Program-made: the position numbers and the translations under genes | Source: Leptonema illini DSM 21528 | GTDB taxonomy: Bacteria > Spirochaetota > Leptospiria > Leptospirales > Leptonemataceae | Reading direction: 5' to 3' | NCBI RefSeq assembly: GCF_000243335.1 | Contig: NZ_JH597775.1 | Coordinates: forward strand, 1 to 64,000 | DNA: 64,000 nucleotides | Shown here: one piece after another, positions 33,450-52,302 of the stretch | Position numbering within the stretch: position 1 is the first letter of the stretch | Layout: every line of letters starts with the position of its first letter | The notes under the pieces: model-generated | Seen by the model: only the letters and a program-made list of their open reading frames with translations | Database searches by the model: none | What the model was told of the DNA's origin: nothing

Positions 33450-33550
33450 GTTCTGGGATGCTCCATGCTTTACCTCTCCTACGATTATTTGTTCCGCTCG
33501 ATCAGGAAAACTCTGGACGACTGGAAGCATGGGCTCGATTTATTGAATAC

Positions 33551-34669
33551 ATGATAGCCAGCATTAAACTGGATAACTTCACCGTTTTCGGTTCAGAAAC
33601 GATCGAATTCTCAGATGGGATGAATCTGATCGCTGGCGAAAACGGTACCGGTAAGAGTCATCTGCTCAAAGTCGCTTATGCCGCTTTTGAAGCGACCTGG
33701 AGAACATATCGTCAGGCCTCTCTGCTTAATACGGCGAGTACGGCAATCAGTAAGGCCGGAGACGAAGCTTCAACAGCTTATTCCGTTTCTCCCTCCAGAG
33801 AAGCATTGCAGAAGGCGCTGGCTGAAAAACTGGACGGCGTTTTTAAACCGGAGTCAATCGGACGACTCTGTGGAAAAGGGCGGGGCCGCCAGTCCAGCAC
33901 AGTGAGCGTCTTCTTCAAAAAAAGCGCAACTCCGGTTACATTCAGTTTCGCCACCAATAGCAAATCCAGTGTCGGCTTGAGCACTATACCAGAAGAGATG
34001 GAATCCAGTGGGCCGGTCTTCATTCCAACAAGAGAAGTACTGACTCTCTATCCTGAAATCATCAGCCTTATAAAGAGGAGTACCATCCAGATTGACGAGA
34101 CCTATTTTGACCTGGCGGTAGACCTGGCCGGTCCCTTGAGTAAGGGCCCCAGGCTGAAGGAAGTAGCCGAATTCGTCGGGCCTCTCGAAGAAGCGATGAA
34201 GGGAAAGATACGGGTCGAAGGATCACGCTTCTACCTTGTTTCGGAGGGGAAGGGACGAATGGAAATGCCCCTTGTTGCCGAAGGCGTTCGCAAGCTTGCC
34301 ATGATTGCATACCTGCTTCTTAATGGCAGTCTCGGAAGTCGTTCAACCATTTTCTGGGATGAACCAGAGACGAACCTGAATCCAAAGCTCCTGAAAGAAG
34401 TCGCCCGGAGCCTTGTGGCTTTGAGCGAACATGGCATTCAGATCATTGCAGCAACACACAGTCATTTTTTCATGAAAGAGGTAGAAATTCAGAGGTCTCG
34501 GCAAAAAGCCGGCAAGGACATCCGCTTTATCAATCTTTTCTTTGGAGAGGACGATCACGTTTATCAAGAATCTGGTGCTGCACTTTCTGATCTGGATCAC
34601 ATAGCAGCACTGGACGAAATCCTATCCCAGGATGACAGAGATCAGGCATTATTCTACGAGACGGTTTGA
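33551..34669 (+). CDS. ABC/AAA-type ATPase (RecF/OLD-like), likely defence-related
   Basis: A 372-residue cytosolic ATPase of the AAA_15/AAA_21 class. Walker A is GENGTGKS (residues 29-36), a FIPTREVLTLYPEI segment is at 157-170, the signature-like EGVRKLAMIAYLLLNGS at 244-260, Walker B IFWDEPETNLNP with Asp270/Glu271, and a switch His303 in ATHSHF. The insert between the ATPase halves replaces the coiled coil of RecF/SMC proteins, and no TOPRIM domain follows, unlike OLD nucleases. Its stop overlaps the start of the nuclease-like gene (TGATG). Base composition is lower in GC than its neighbours, which suggests transfer. Start set at ATG 33551, which agrees with the family; the frame is open from 33458. 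Confidence 0.8.
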   Translation: MIASIKLDNFTVFGSETIEFSDGMNLIAGENGTGKSHLLKVAYAAFEATWRTYRQASLLNTASTAISKAGDEASTAYSVSPSREALQKALAEKLDGVFKPESIGRLCGKGRGRQSSTVSVFFKKSATPVTFSFATNSKSSVGLSTIPEEMESSGPVFIPTREVLTLYPEIISLIKRSTIQIDETYFDLAVDLAGPLSKGPRLKEVAEFVGPLEEAMKGKIRVEGSRFYLVSEGKGRMEMPLVAEGVRKLAMIAYLLLNGSLGSRSTIFWDEPETNLNPKLLKEVARSLVALSEHGIQIIAATHSHFFMKEVEIQRSRQKAGKDIRFINLFFGEDDHVYQESGAALSDLDHIAALDEILSQDDRDQALFYETV

Positions 34670-35187
34670 TGATCCCAATCCAGGAAGGCCAGATCACCCT
34701 AAAATTTCGCGATGAAACCGGGGCCTTTAAATATGACGAGGATCCGTTTTACCAGAAATCGGTGAGGAAACTTCCCGAAACAAAAGGCGTCGATATCGTC
34801 GTTCCTGGAGCACCGAATGGATACTACCTTGTCGAATTAAAGGATTTCCGCGGACATCGAATTGAGAACAAAGCCAGGATAACAAACGGGGCGCTGGCCG
34901 AAGAAGTGGCACAGAAGTTTCGGGATACGATTGCTGCCCTGTGGGGGGCATGGCGGACCGACAACATCATCGGCAATGATACACTGTTCTCAAACCGAAG
35001 TCTCCGAGTCGAAGGAATTCTATTGCTTGCAGAAGACGTAGATCGGCCCGAATCCGGAAAGCGGGTGCGAGGAATACGTATCAATTTAAAGACAAAACTG
35101 GAGAATCTCTCGAAATTTCTGGGCATTCGAGTGAATATTGTTACGGAAGAGGAGTTCCGCCAACGCTACGCACATCTTCTGATCTGA
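34669..35187 (+). CDS. Small PD-(D/E)xK nuclease-like protein coupled to the ATPase
   Basis: A 172-residue cytosolic protein with no family that I know. The pattern GVDIVV...YYLVELKDFRG places Asp42, Glu56 and Lys58 as a D-x(13)-E-x-K set, which fits a PD-(D/E)xK nuclease core; the following beta strands and helices are compatible. Another reading is a non-catalytic scaffold of the same fold. The ATG overlaps the ATPase stop (TGATG), so both proteins should be made in fixed ratio. A nuclease fed by an ATPase sensor is the usual plan of phage-defence pairs such as PARIS or Gabija, but the architecture here matches neither. Confidence 0.6.
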   Translation: MIPIQEGQITLKFRDETGAFKYDEDPFYQKSVRKLPETKGVDIVVPGAPNGYYLVELKDFRGHRIENKARITNGALAEEVAQKFRDTIAALWGAWRTDNIIGNDTLFSNRSLRVEGILLLAEDVDRPESGKRVRGIRINLKTKLENLSKFLGIRVNIVTEEEFRQRYAHLLI

Positions 35188-48878: not shown

Positions 48879-49092
48879 TTTTTACCGCTGAGGTCGCGGA
48901 GGGCGCAGAGGAAGCCACTGAGGTATGATTCTGTCTTCTTTCGCGTTTTTCGTGGACAAGAATTCTTTTTACCGCGAAAGGCGCGAAATACGCGAAAAAG
49001 ATCCGGTCACATGCAAACAAGATAGAATCAGTCTTCTGAGATCGAAAATCCTATCTCTTTTCTCTGAGTCCTCCGTGCTCTCCGTGGTTAAC
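48879..49092. repeat. MITE-like nested-palindrome element, copy A
   Basis: Outer ends are imperfect inverted repeats: ACCGCTGAGGTCGCGGAGG (left) against CTCCGTGCTCTCCGTGGTTA (right). Inside, TTTCGCGTTTTTCGTGG (48940-48956) faces ACCGCGAAAGGCGCG (48971-48985) as a second palindrome. It is non-coding, and its closest relative is the copy at 51092. A further right-type half (ACCACGGAGGGCGCTGAGG) lies at 49121-49139. Confidence 0.7.
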
Positions 49093-49150
49093 AATTCCTC
49101 TGACCAGGCAAAAGCCGGTGCACCACGGAGGGCGCTGAGGTGGCAGCGAG

Positions 49151-49786
49151 TTATCTGCTCGAACGTGAAACGCGTACACCTGACCAATCTGAAAATCCAG
49201 AGGCCAGCCGCAGTACTGGAATGCCTCGCGAACGTAGCAGCGCCTGGGCATTCACTGACAGCAGGCAGTAGGGGCCGCGGCAGTATACGATCAATTCACG
49301 ATCCTTCGGCAATTTTACGGCCTGTTTCTTGAGATCTTCAAAAGGTATATTAATGGCTCCGGCAATATGCCCTTTATTGTACTCCTCCGCAGAGCGCACA
49401 TCTATAAGAAGCGGATCCTCCATTCTGATTTTCTTCTGACATTCCTTTTCGCTGATGCTATCGCCGGCAGCAGCTCCGTCGGGGAGGTCTGACTTAAGCC
49501 CGCGGAATACAGCAAACCGTTCCAGTGCTTCAAGCAGTTCACGGATCGGACCATTCTGCAGGCTGTAAAGGACATGCTTTCCGTCACGACGCGTCGCTAC
49601 CATATTTGATTTTTTCAGGATTTGCAGGTGTTGTGAAGTGCTGGCTGTGGGTATTCCCGATAGCTCAGAGAGTGTTTCAACAGATTTCTCCCCCGCCGCA
49701 ATGAGCAACATGAGGATGATCCGGGAATCGTTTCCCAGCGTGCCGGCAATACCGCTCATACGCGAAATCGTATCAATATCCTTCAC
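49151..49786 (-). CDS. ArsR-type regulator fused to a rhodanese domain
   Basis: A 211-residue fusion. Residues 1-95 are an ArsR winged helix (LSELSGIPTASTSQHLQILKKSNMVATRRDGKHVLYSL), with no obvious metal-binding cysteine pair. Residues 110-205 are a rhodanese: LLIDVRSAEEYNKGHIAGAINIP and the active loop YCRGPYCLLS with a catalytic cysteine. Such fusions sense sulfane sulfur or sulfide-derived persulfides. The 36-base palindrome at 49875-49910 between this gene and the DUF2938 gene is its likely operator, so it may repress both genes. A repeat element lies downstream. Confidence 0.9.
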   Translation of the reverse strand: MKDIDTISRMSGIAGTLGNDSRIILMLLIAAGEKSVETLSELSGIPTASTSQHLQILKKSNMVATRRDGKHVLYSLQNGPIRELLEALERFAVFRGLKSDLPDGAAAGDSISEKECQKKIRMEDPLLIDVRSAEEYNKGHIAGAINIPFEDLKKQAVKLPKDRELIVYCRGPYCLLSVNAQALLRSRGIPVLRLASGFSDWSGVRVSRSSR

Positions 49787-49874
49787 CGGTCTATGCAGTG
49801 CTGCAGGGCATTCTGTGGCGAATACTTTTTAGCCTGACCTCCGCCGGAGACCGGGCTCACAAAAAAAGATCGAC

Positions 49875-49910
49875 GTTCTGTCATTCAATTAATATATTGA
49901 ATGACAGAAC
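49875..49910. promoter_or_regulatory. Perfect inverted repeat, likely operator of the ArsR-rhodanese regulator
   Basis: GTTCTGTCATTCAAT (49875-49889) and its complement ATTGAATGACAGAAC (49896-49910) flank TAATAT. The centre ATTCAAT-N6-ATTGAAT has ArsR operator form. It ends 17 bases before the DUF2938 start and lies about 90 bases upstream of the regulator start. Confidence 0.7.
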
Positions 49911-49927
49911 GATATCACGGAGGTTCT

Positions 49928-50446
49928 ATGAATATCACAACAGCAGTGATGGTGCAAATCCTTGCCGTTGGAGCAGGGGCTACCCTCACCATGGATATCT
50001 GGCGTTTCCTTTTACTGAAGGTATTTGGAATAAACTCGCTTGATTTAAGTCTGCTCGGTCGGTGGGTCGGACATCTACCACACGGTCGGTTCTTCCATGC
50101 AAAGATCGCCGGCAGCGAAAGAATCAAAGGAGAACTGCTTCTGGGCTGGATCACACACTATGGCATCGGTATCGGATTTGCGATGATGCTCTCCCTTTTC
50201 TGGGGAGCTGCATGGTTTGCATCTCCAGTGCTTTTACCAGCTCTCACAGTTGGTCTTGCCACGGTCCTGGCTCCATGGTTCATCATGCAACCCGCAATGG
50301 GCCTCGGCGTTACAGCGGCAAACGCACCGTCGCCGAATGCAGTACGTCTGCGCAATCTGGCAATCCACCTTGTTTACGGGCTTGGTCTCTACGTTTCAGC
50401 ACTGGCGTTGAACTGGCTTATCGCCTCGATCCGATTTAACCTCTGA
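49928..50446 (+). CDS. DUF2938 family membrane protein
   Basis: A 172-residue membrane protein with four hydrophobic segments. The segment GAGATLTMDIWRFLLLKVFG and the FHAKIAGSERIKGELLLGWITHYGIGIGFAMML segment are characteristic of DUF2938. The function of the family is unknown; it is often found beside transcriptional regulators. GGAGG stands before the ATG. The gene is divergent from the ArsR-rhodanese gene with a shared palindrome, so it is probably induced by the same signal (reactive sulfur or similar) and may export or handle such a compound. The stop is followed at once by a half repeat. Confidence 0.82.
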   Translation: MNITTAVMVQILAVGAGATLTMDIWRFLLLKVFGINSLDLSLLGRWVGHLPHGRFFHAKIAGSERIKGELLLGWITHYGIGIGFAMMLSLFWGAAWFASPVLLPALTVGLATVLAPWFIMQPAMGLGVTAANAPSPNAVRLRNLAIHLVYGLGLYVSALALNWLIASIRFNL

Positions 50447-50472
50447 GGTCGCTGAGTGCATAGAGAAAGCCC
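50439..50472. repeat. Half copy of the dispersed repeat at the DUF2938 stop
   Basis: CTCTGAGGTCGCTGAGTGCA followed by TAGAGAAAGCC matches the left arm of the larger elements (GAGGTCGCGGAGGGCGCAGAG). It begins at the end of the DUF2938 gene, whose stop codon is part of the repeat. Confidence 0.4.
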
Positions 50473-50512
50473 GATAGCATGCCGTCCCAACAACCGAGTG
50501 AGGTTCAGGAAT

Positions 50513-51178
50513 CTATGGAGAATCGCACAAATCGTTATTGAATGGTGTAATTATCCACTGCGCCTCGACAGGAAATTGAAGTGGCTTGAGCAAGCCTTCC
50601 CAGATGGCTGAACCTATTGCATTCTTCAGCCAGAAGTACTTGAGAGCAATCATCAATTCCCAACGCCCGAACTTCGGCGACCGCATTTTTCTTTCCAAAT
50701 CATAGAATGTCGGCACGTGTCCTCTTTCTGTTTCATCATGGATATGATGGTAGAGCCAATTCATCTGGTCTCGGTTTACTCGGAAAACCGAATCAAAGGC
50801 AGCGTGAAGACTCCTTTCATGATCATCGTCCAGAATCGGATAAACATCATTTTTCCAGGCAAAAGCATAGCCATCACTGAAACACTTCGCTGTTTCAGTG
50901 CCTCTAAACGCTAAGAGGATATTCCCTTTCTGTGTAGCATACATCATACGCTTTAATTCATCCATCCGCCGGTACCCCCCCGGGAGCTGCTCATAATTAT
51001 CATCCAACAAGCCCCCGGATATATTTTCATTATCTACATTCCCGAAAGAGGGTTTACCAAAAATAATGATCGAGCTGGCAATGGGCGAGGGAAACCGCTG
51101 AGGTCGCGGAGGGCGCAGAGAAAGCCGCTGAGGTATGATTCTGTCTTCTTTCGCGTTTTTCGTGCTTTTCGTGGACAA
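50513..51178 (-). pseudogene. Lipase-like gene fragment with repeat-derived N-terminus
   Basis: The frame encodes 221 residues. The first 30 or so (KSTKNAKEDRIIPQRLSLRP) come from inside repeat copy B, and real protein sequence seems to begin near IIIFGKPSFGNVDNENISGG. GNILLAFRGTETAKCFSDGY resembles the beta strand before the active-site elbow of class 3 lipases (AFRGT), but no GHSLG nucleophile follows within the frame. The likely history is a longer lipase-like gene cut at its 5' end by the repeat, and perhaps also shortened inside. A functional small protein is possible but less likely. Confidence 0.5.
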
Positions 51179-51356
51179 GGATTCTTTTGACCGCGCAAAA
51201 CGCGAAAGCGATCCGGTTTATGCCCCTAAATCAATCCGAGAGGTCATGGCCTTTGGGGTCGAAAACTCTATTACTTTCCGCTGTCGTTCCTCGGTAATCT
51301 CTGCAGTTCATCTCTCTCCCTGTCTTCTCAGCGTCCTCGGTGCCCTCCGCGGTTAA
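51092..51356. repeat. MITE-like nested-palindrome element, copy B
   Basis: Outer arms AACCGCTGAGGTCGCGGAGG (left) and GCCCTCCGCGGTT (right end, 51342-51354) form the ends; the inner palindrome is TTTCGCGTTTTTCGTG against ACCGCGCAAAACGCG. Copy B has a nine-base duplication (CTTTTCGTG) relative to copy A. It contains the 5' end of the lipase-like frame. The rest of the interval 51179-51492 has no gene. Confidence 0.7.
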
Positions 51357-51492
51357 ACCATTCCCAGTCAAAATCACCGTAACAAGCAGGGATGCTAGAT
51401 TCCGGGCAGAGCATCTAACCCACGCACAGCTTCCGATAATCATTATTATGTCACCAAAAGGCGAGACGCCTGCCCGTCGATCGGCCCATTTT

Positions 51493-51521
51493 TTGCTTGC
51501 AATGATACTGAGTCTCATTAT
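51493..51521 (+). promoter_or_regulatory. bfd promoter with Fur-like operator between its two elements
   Basis: TTGCTT (51493-51498), a 17-base spacer and CATTAT (51516-51521) form a promoter. TGATACT-G-AGTCTCA (51503-51517) lies in the spacer and overlaps the -10. The start of transcription would be near 51528, leaving almost no leader before the ATG at 51531. Confidence 0.6.
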
Positions 51522-51530
51522 GTTGTAGCT

Positions 51531-51734
51531 ATGTTCATCTGTAGCTGCCGGGCCGTGACTGACCGCCAGATCAAGGCGTCCATCGATTCCGGGAATGATA
51601 ATCTGCATGCTATCATGGAAGATACCGGAGCCGGAGACTGCTGCGGAAGCTGCCAGGAAGATATGCTGCAGATGATCCTTGATTCGCTGCCTCCTCGGGC
51701 GGAGCAGCAGGAAGCGAACCTGCAACTGCATTGA
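51531..51734 (+). CDS. bfd: Bacterioferritin-associated ferredoxin
   Basis: A 67-residue Bfd that binds a 2Fe-2S cluster and releases iron from bacterioferritin. The ligands are Cys4 and Cys6 (FICSCRAVTD) and the C-x-x-C pair in CCGSC (about residues 38-41), the usual Bfd spacing. No ribosome site precedes the ATG; the promoter places the transcript start within a few bases, so the message may be leaderless. It is followed after about 95 bases by bfr. The Fur-like operator predicts repression by iron. Confidence 0.88.
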   Translation: MFICSCRAVTDRQIKASIDSGNDNLHAIMEDTGAGDCCGSCQEDMLQMILDSLPPRAEQQEANLQLH

Positions 51735-51828
51735 TCGCCGTCTGTCGATCTGACTTTTTCTTGATCAGAATGCGAAGAAATGCCGAAAAGGCTTTTCGGA
51801 TGGCGCCTCTGTGTTTTCTTCTGCCGAT

Positions 51829-52302
51829 ATGAAAGGCGACACAAAGGTTCTCGAATTCCTGAACCACGTTCTCAAAAACGAACTCACGGCTATCAACCAG
51901 TATTTCCTTCATGCTAAAATGCTGAAGAACTGGGGCATCAATAAGCTGGCCTCGATCACCCATAAAGAATCCATCGATGAGATGAAGCATGGCGATCGTG
52001 TCATCGAGCGCATCCTCTTTCTCGAAGGGCTGCCCAATCTGCAGGATCTCGGCCGTCTGCGTATCGGTGAGAACACGCAGGAGATTCTCAAATCCGATCT
52101 GGCCCTTGAAAACCTGGCCATCCCCGTTCTGCGAGACGCCATTCAGCACTGCGAGCAGGTGCGCGATTTCGTCAGCCGCGAGCTTTTTGAAGACATCCTC
52201 GAAGACGAAGAAGAGCACGTCGATTTTCTCGAAACCCAGCTTGATCTGATCGAAAAAATGGGATTGCAGAACTACATCCAGTCCATGTCAGATATCAGCT
52301 GA
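51829..52302 (+). CDS. bfr: Bacterioferritin
   Basis: A 157-residue 24-mer iron-storage protein with heme. Ferroxidase ligands include the Glu in [11 protein letters not shown], the Glu and His in [10 protein letters not shown], and the [11 protein letters not shown] block. The heme-binding Met is the one in [21 protein letters not shown] and [10 protein letters not shown] match the family closely. The start is the ATG of MKGDTKV, as in other Bfr proteins; no clear ribosome site is visible. A small hairpin (51783-51799) lies upstream. It pairs with bfd for iron storage and release. Confidence 0.95.

Follow-up and report, generated by a model that had tools for sequence, protein, structure and literature searches.

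A horizontally acquired ABC ATPase and PD-(D/E)xK nuclease-like gene pair of the HEC-02 class in the spirochaete Leptonema illini

We analysed the first 64,000 nucleotides of contig NZ_JH597775.1 of Leptonema illini DSM 21528 (the window), in which two overlapping genes, here called A and B, encode an ABC-type ATPase and a small PD-(D/E)xK nuclease-like protein. The pair is an accessory cassette of horizontal origin and, judged by its profile matches, a fresh example of a defence-pair class that has already been described, both as HEC-02 and as 'OLD-ABC ATPase + novel REase' operons. Our preferred reading, to which we give a probability of about 0.78, is that A and B form a single acquired anti-phage module of this class in which the ATPase gates a nuclease that aborts infection. 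An earlier note on this DNA had proposed a candidate new defence pair. The defence half of that proposal is supported by the genomic contexts of related pairs, but its novelty has to be given up, since PADLOC HEC-02 profiles match both genes and descriptions of the class have been published. What the pair adds is the placement of a predicted, little-tested class in a spirochaete.

Anatomy, setting and acquisition of the gene pair

Gene A (33551-34669, forward strand, 372 aa) ends in the TGA at 34667-34669, and gene B (forward strand, 172 aa) runs from the ATG at 34669 to the end of its stop codon at 35187. The two meet in a TGATG in which a single base is shared by the stop of A and the start of B, so that the coupled arrangement given in the earlier note is present as described. 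Translation from an alternative ATG further upstream, at 33458, would make A 31 aa longer; the start was set at 33551 because the N-terminus of the family aligns there and the aligned relatives begin at that position.

The pair stands free amid housekeeping genes, outside any defence island. It lies, as had been claimed, between hemA and a PII gene; the genes around it are hemA (GlutR_N), glnB (P-II) and amtB on the other strand. The GC content of A and of B is 0.49 each and their GC3 is 0.51 each, against a GC3 of 0.635-0.702 in eleven flanking genes; the lower GC of the pair is therefore real, and it is large at third positions. A second lower-GC stretch (about 0.49-0.505) occupies 49001-52000 of the window and by eye holds a bacterioferritin-like ORF and another in which an ArsR-type regulator is joined to a rhodanese-like domain, neither with an obvious defence role.

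The foreign GC3 and the absence of the pair from the other family members examined together bear out the suggestion of an inserted cassette. In the 21 other genomes of the family that were examined, no B protein and no strong HEC-02 ATPase turned up. Among 60 related genomes a high-scoring ATPase occurred in only two, both of the same order, and within the phylum (Spirochaetota) the B profile was present in 10 of 393 genomes. Due to this patchy occurrence, the pair was rejected as a core gene. No pair was found at the hemA or glnB-amtB loci of the relatives examined; hemA and glnB-amtB are not adjacent in these relatives, and for this reason synteny yielded no empty insertion site and the insertion point could not be demonstrated.

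The ATPase encoded by gene A

Searches of A against Pfam returned AAA_21 (4e-20) and AAA_15 (6e-16), with SMC_N under its cut-off, and searches against PADLOC returned the HEC-02 profiles PDLC04146 (7.9e-106, over residues 1-363) and PDLC04213 (2.8e-84). The AF2 model of A (pLDDT 92.4) is an ABC head with no coiled-coil arm, and the top PDB folds retrieved by Foldseek were PtuA of Septu, retron PtuA, and SMC and Rad50 heads (E 1e-15 to 1e-11), the nearest solved fold being Septu PtuA (8eea, E 3e-15). We regard A as an ABC-type (SMC/Rad50/OLD-like, AAA_21) ATPase and as a putative sensor or gate.

An alignment of 59 ATPases of the A family upheld the catalytic residues that had been picked out from the single sequence. 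The Walker A motif, G29-S36 (GENGTGKS, 33635-33658, forward strand), has G29, N31, G34 and K35 invariant; the Walker B motif and D-loop, FWDEPETNLNP (residues 268-278, 34352-34384, forward strand), has F268, W269, D270, E271, E273, N275 and N277 invariant; and the switch histidine H303 (34457-34459, forward strand) does not vary, nor does Q297. Between Walker A and Walker B, the segment AEGVRK (residues 243-248, 34277-34294, forward strand), with E244, G245 and K248 invariant in the 59, resembles an ABC signature and is provisionally assigned as such from its position. The full ATPase catalytic site is thus retained in A. Neither the profile searches, Pfam included, nor the model revealed a TOPRIM domain in A, which carries ATPase domains only; the argument that it is no OLD or Gabija protein stands.

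The nuclease-like partner encoded by gene B

Single-sequence searches with B against Pfam, NCBIfam and PHROGs were nearly blind. From PADLOC, two HEC-02 profiles matched B (PDLC04228, 1.6e-22; PDLC04145, 4.8e-16), and an HMM built from 76 relatives, B itself excluded, scored it at 1.5e-28. The nuclease motif proposed for B was followed through an alignment of 77 partner proteins, 71 of which match a single HEC-02 nuclease profile. Asp42 (34792-34794, forward strand) is an aspartate in 76 of the 77 and a glutamate in the other, while in Glu56-x-Lys58 (34834-34842, forward strand) the glutamate is conserved in all 77 and the lysine in 76; the spacing from the aspartate to Glu56 varies from 12 to 18 residues. 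Conservation at this level argues that the motif is under selection and has not arisen by chance. Lys83 (34915-34917, forward strand) is invariant in all 77 proteins, as strictly kept as the motif glutamate, and is likely an extra active-site or substrate-binding residue; the earlier note does not mention it.

In the AF2 model of B (pLDDT 88.6, pTM 0.86), D42 is followed by strand 43-47, strand 51-59 (with E56 and K58), the core helix 75-98 (with K83), strand 113-121, helix 129-147 and strand 154-159. This succession of predicted elements is that of a PD-(D/E)xK core, an assignment that is well supported if not proven. Foldseek retrieved no significant match for the model in the PDB, the best nuclease being EcoO109I (E 0.14, probability 0.44); the list of non-significant matches includes this enzyme together with SfsA, XPF and EcoT38I, all of which we take to be PD-(D/E)xK enzymes or their relatives. 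Some relatives of B match the Pfam families NERD (9.8e-6) and pPIWI_RE_REase (1.8e-4), presumably nuclease domains of the PD-(D/E)xK superfamily. Because the PDB match is not significant, the fold call draws on the topology, the motif and these weak Pfam matches. Sequence searches of the PDB with a B profile gave weak matches to Hjc resolvase only (E 0.4-0.9) when the profile had 16 rows, and irrelevant matches when it had 77. Structure prediction of both proteins, which the earlier note had put forward as a check, is accordingly favourable for an ABC head in A and for a PD-(D/E)xK-like topology in B. Of the two outcomes that the note named as refuting its proposal, a B fold with no nuclease core and a pair that is core among relatives, neither was observed.

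Coupling and spread of the pair

GTDB species genomes were scanned with eight ATPases and the best 80 distinct ATPase loci were taken, from more than ten phyla (by record titles, Pseudomonadota, Cyanobacteriota, Spirochaetota, Planctomycetota, Acidobacteriota, Chlorobiota, Verrucomicrobiota, Desulfobacterota, Myxococcota and others). A B gene lies directly downstream of the ATPase in 75 of these 80 loci. Where a start could be called for B, it falls no more than 15 bases from the end of A in 69 of 71 pairs, a 4-base overlap being the most frequent arrangement. The distance matrices of the A and B families are correlated (Spearman 0.57 to 0.74, against a highest value of 0.32 to 0.34 in 1000 shuffles), in part through shared descent. 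With B as query, tblastn against plasmids found nothing; because B diverges too fast, the plasmid search was done with A instead, and several relatives of the pair proved to be plasmid-borne.

A full adjacent B is absent from five of the 80 loci, one of them at a contig edge, so that in some cases the ATPase may work by itself or with a different partner. Among the exceptions, B is missing at loci L035 and L071, L048 has only a short B-like frame, and L076 is cut by the contig edge. An HEC-02-type ATPase with no nuclease lies directly between HmaB and HmaC at L047:10001-11068, and a Sulfuricystis plasmid carries an ATPase with no B that adjoins an N-6 methylase (L016:10001-11029); these could possibly reflect a solo function, another partner, or decay. 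In Thiohalocapsa halophila (L039:10001-11047), the ATPase range used contains one in-frame stop whereas the downstream nuclease frame is open, and a pseudogene, a sequencing error or a wrong end point are all possible.

Defence contexts of related pairs

Support for the anti-phage reading comes from where the relatives of the pair are found. In eight loci the ATPase has HmaB before it and HmaC after it, sometimes with genes between (L031, L069 and L089 are among the Hma-embedded relatives). In BREX-1 loci it lies directly after brxC with pglX downstream, as in Methylomonas pLM6, Sphingobium pTomMM15c and the viral-collection contigs L110-L113, and in the BREX-2 locus of Polaromonas pPNAP01 it follows pglX. 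It also follows a PglXI-type gene (L109) and adjoins an hsdM-like gene in two genomes (G026 and G027). One Hma locus has, immediately after the nuclease, a large AAA_5 ATPase (PADLOC PDC-M26A; L025:11636-14146), which could be a third component or part of a second embedded system.

The Leptonema genome itself contains a second, divergent HEC-02 pair (contig C1, about 1253.6-1255.1 kb). Its ATPase shares 26% identity with A and matches HEC-02 in PADLOC at 4e-142, and its partner does so at 1e-46. This pair is bracketed by the hsdS and hsdR genes of a type I restriction-modification (R-M) locus and adjoins a TIR_2 gene (2.8e-11). The locus (positions 1926-13445 of C1:1248000-1262000) comprises hsdM, a DUF1016/YhcG PD-(D/E)xK gene, hsdS, a Mutator-type transposase that interrupts the cluster, the TIR gene, the ATPase, the nuclease and hsdR. 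By eye, the nuclease of the second pair has a glutamate in place of the motif aspartate of most relatives. The position of this pair inside a type I R-M locus and beside a TIR gene lends strong contextual support to a defence role. A single genome thus holds two divergent copies, one free-standing and one within a type I restriction locus.

Proposed mechanism and alternatives

The preferred reading draws in part on WonAB of V. cholerae WASA-1, an ABC ATPase and PD-(D/E)xK pair in which both genes are required, ATPase and nuclease mutants are inactive, and WonB is toxic only together with active WonA; WonAB activity leaves DNA intact and stops translation, with tRNA or rRNA suspected as the target (PMC12137116). 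On this reading, A would probably dimerise on ATP, would hold or stabilise the small nuclease B, and would sense some sign of infection, upon which ATP turnover in A would license B to cut nucleic acid. By analogy with WonAB, this would end in abortive infection through growth or translation arrest and not in mere degradation of phage DNA on entry.

A more specific form of this explanation is that A acts as a PARIS-like guard of restriction systems, detecting phage anti-restriction proteins (e.g. DNA mimics) and then releasing B. The repeated embedding of related pairs in Hma, BREX and type I R-M operons favours such a role, as do the precedent of PARIS and the proposal that dyads of an OLD-ABC ATPase and a nuclease serve as back-ups in BREX (PMC12839542), and the Leptonema pair perhaps backs up restriction systems as well. 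However, the copy in the window lies outside any restriction locus and the embedding may reflect mere co-transfer; we put the guard role forward as tentative. A broader version, which we find doubtful, would make HEC-02 pairs general restriction guards: inserted into operons of the Hma, BREX and type I R-M kinds, the dyad would respond to a block of these systems by killing the infected cell, B would cleave RNA (tRNA or rRNA) and not DNA, and stand-alone copies would guard a distant restriction system. If the restriction-guard reading is true, a genome with one lone copy and one copy in a type I R-M locus allows a direct comparison.

The pair might instead be a restriction-like module of type II or IV, in which B directly cleaves phage DNA, perhaps modified, as it enters, and A serves to load or translocate this DNA, with no suicide of the host. 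PD-(D/E)xK folds are mostly DNases, SMC/Rad50-type ABC heads act on DNA, and relatives of the pair adjoin methylases and R-M genes. Yet the pair often occurs with no methylase, and alone, as in the window, and WonAB stops translation while DNA stays intact (PMC12137116), which makes a module of this kind rather unlikely in our judgement. An overlapping two-gene operon, with several relatives on plasmids and a Pfam family (AAA_21) labelled 'AbiEii toxin, type IV TA', could also suggest a toxin-antitoxin pair that maintains mobile elements, A neutralising the toxin B; but the ATPase keeps its full catalytic site, and for WonAB simple neutralisation is excluded because toxicity needs WonA and its ATPase (PMC12137116), so that we see little chance of this for A and B. 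Finally, a role in DNA repair or housekeeping on the lines of RecF/Rad50, suggested by the ABC-type head of A, is very improbable given the patchy distribution, which is a strong counter-argument, the foreign GC3, and the relatives in defence loci.

Comparison with known systems

Several families with an ABC ATPase were considered and rejected because the partner or domain that each requires is missing. PARIS (AriAB) likewise joins an ABC ATPase to a separate nuclease gene, and its AriA profile matches A at 2e-20, but AriB is a DUF4435 TOPRIM protein whereas B is PD-(D/E)xK-like; the Pfam and PADLOC profiles gave no DUF4435 or AriB match in B, in agreement with the earlier exclusion of PARIS. 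In Septu and the retron PtuAB, the PtuA fold is the closest to A but PtuB is an HNH nuclease, and no HNH or PtuB match was obtained for B with the same profiles. PD-T4-4 also pairs an ATPase with a nuclease (PMC12137116); its profile PD-T4-4_A matches A at 1.5e-16, far more weakly than HEC-02 and best over the C-terminal ATPase part, and B has no PD-T4-4_B match. Gabija and OLD carry a C-terminal TOPRIM domain in the ATPase, unlike the 372-aa A.

HEC-02 profiles, by comparison, match both genes over nearly their full length, although in these matches the A and B suffixes used by PADLOC fail to separate ATPase from nuclease. HEC stands for Hma-embedded candidate, a group found by guilt-by-embedding (Payne et al. 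2024 preprint, as summarised in PMC12988326), and the same summary describes several HEC systems as validated, a statement made of the group. Relatives of the pair do sit between HmaB and HmaC, whereas the copy in the window is outside Hma and a search of this genome for HmaB was negative; embedding in Hma is how the class was found and apparently not a requirement for each member.

The same type of operon was described as 'OLD-ABC ATPase + novel REase' in an ABC-ATPase survey (Krishnan et al. 2020, as cited in later work, PMC12137116 included). A has the Walker A and Walker B motifs and the H-loop of these ATPases and no TOPRIM domain, and B has the conserved active site of the partner and a PD-(D/E)xK fold that is supported but not proven. 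A BREX survey (NAR 2026) assigns OLD-ABC ATPases with alternative nucleases, including PD-(D/E)xK, the part of back-up effectors in BREX loci and in the BREX-related Hma loci (PMC12839542). The authors of the WonAB work place it among the 'OLD-ABC ATPase + novel REase' operons (PMC12137116); by its description, WonAB has the same plan as A and B, an ABC ATPase with no TOPRIM domain followed by a small PD-(D/E)xK gene. WonA has about 30 more residues than A between Walker A and Walker B, and a C-terminal extension. Going by the description of WonAB and not by an alignment, K34, E300 and H333 of WonA would correspond to K35, E271 and H303 of A, and K71 of WonB probably to K58 of B. K35, E271 and H303 in A and D42, E56, K58 and K83 in B are supplied as residue-level targets.
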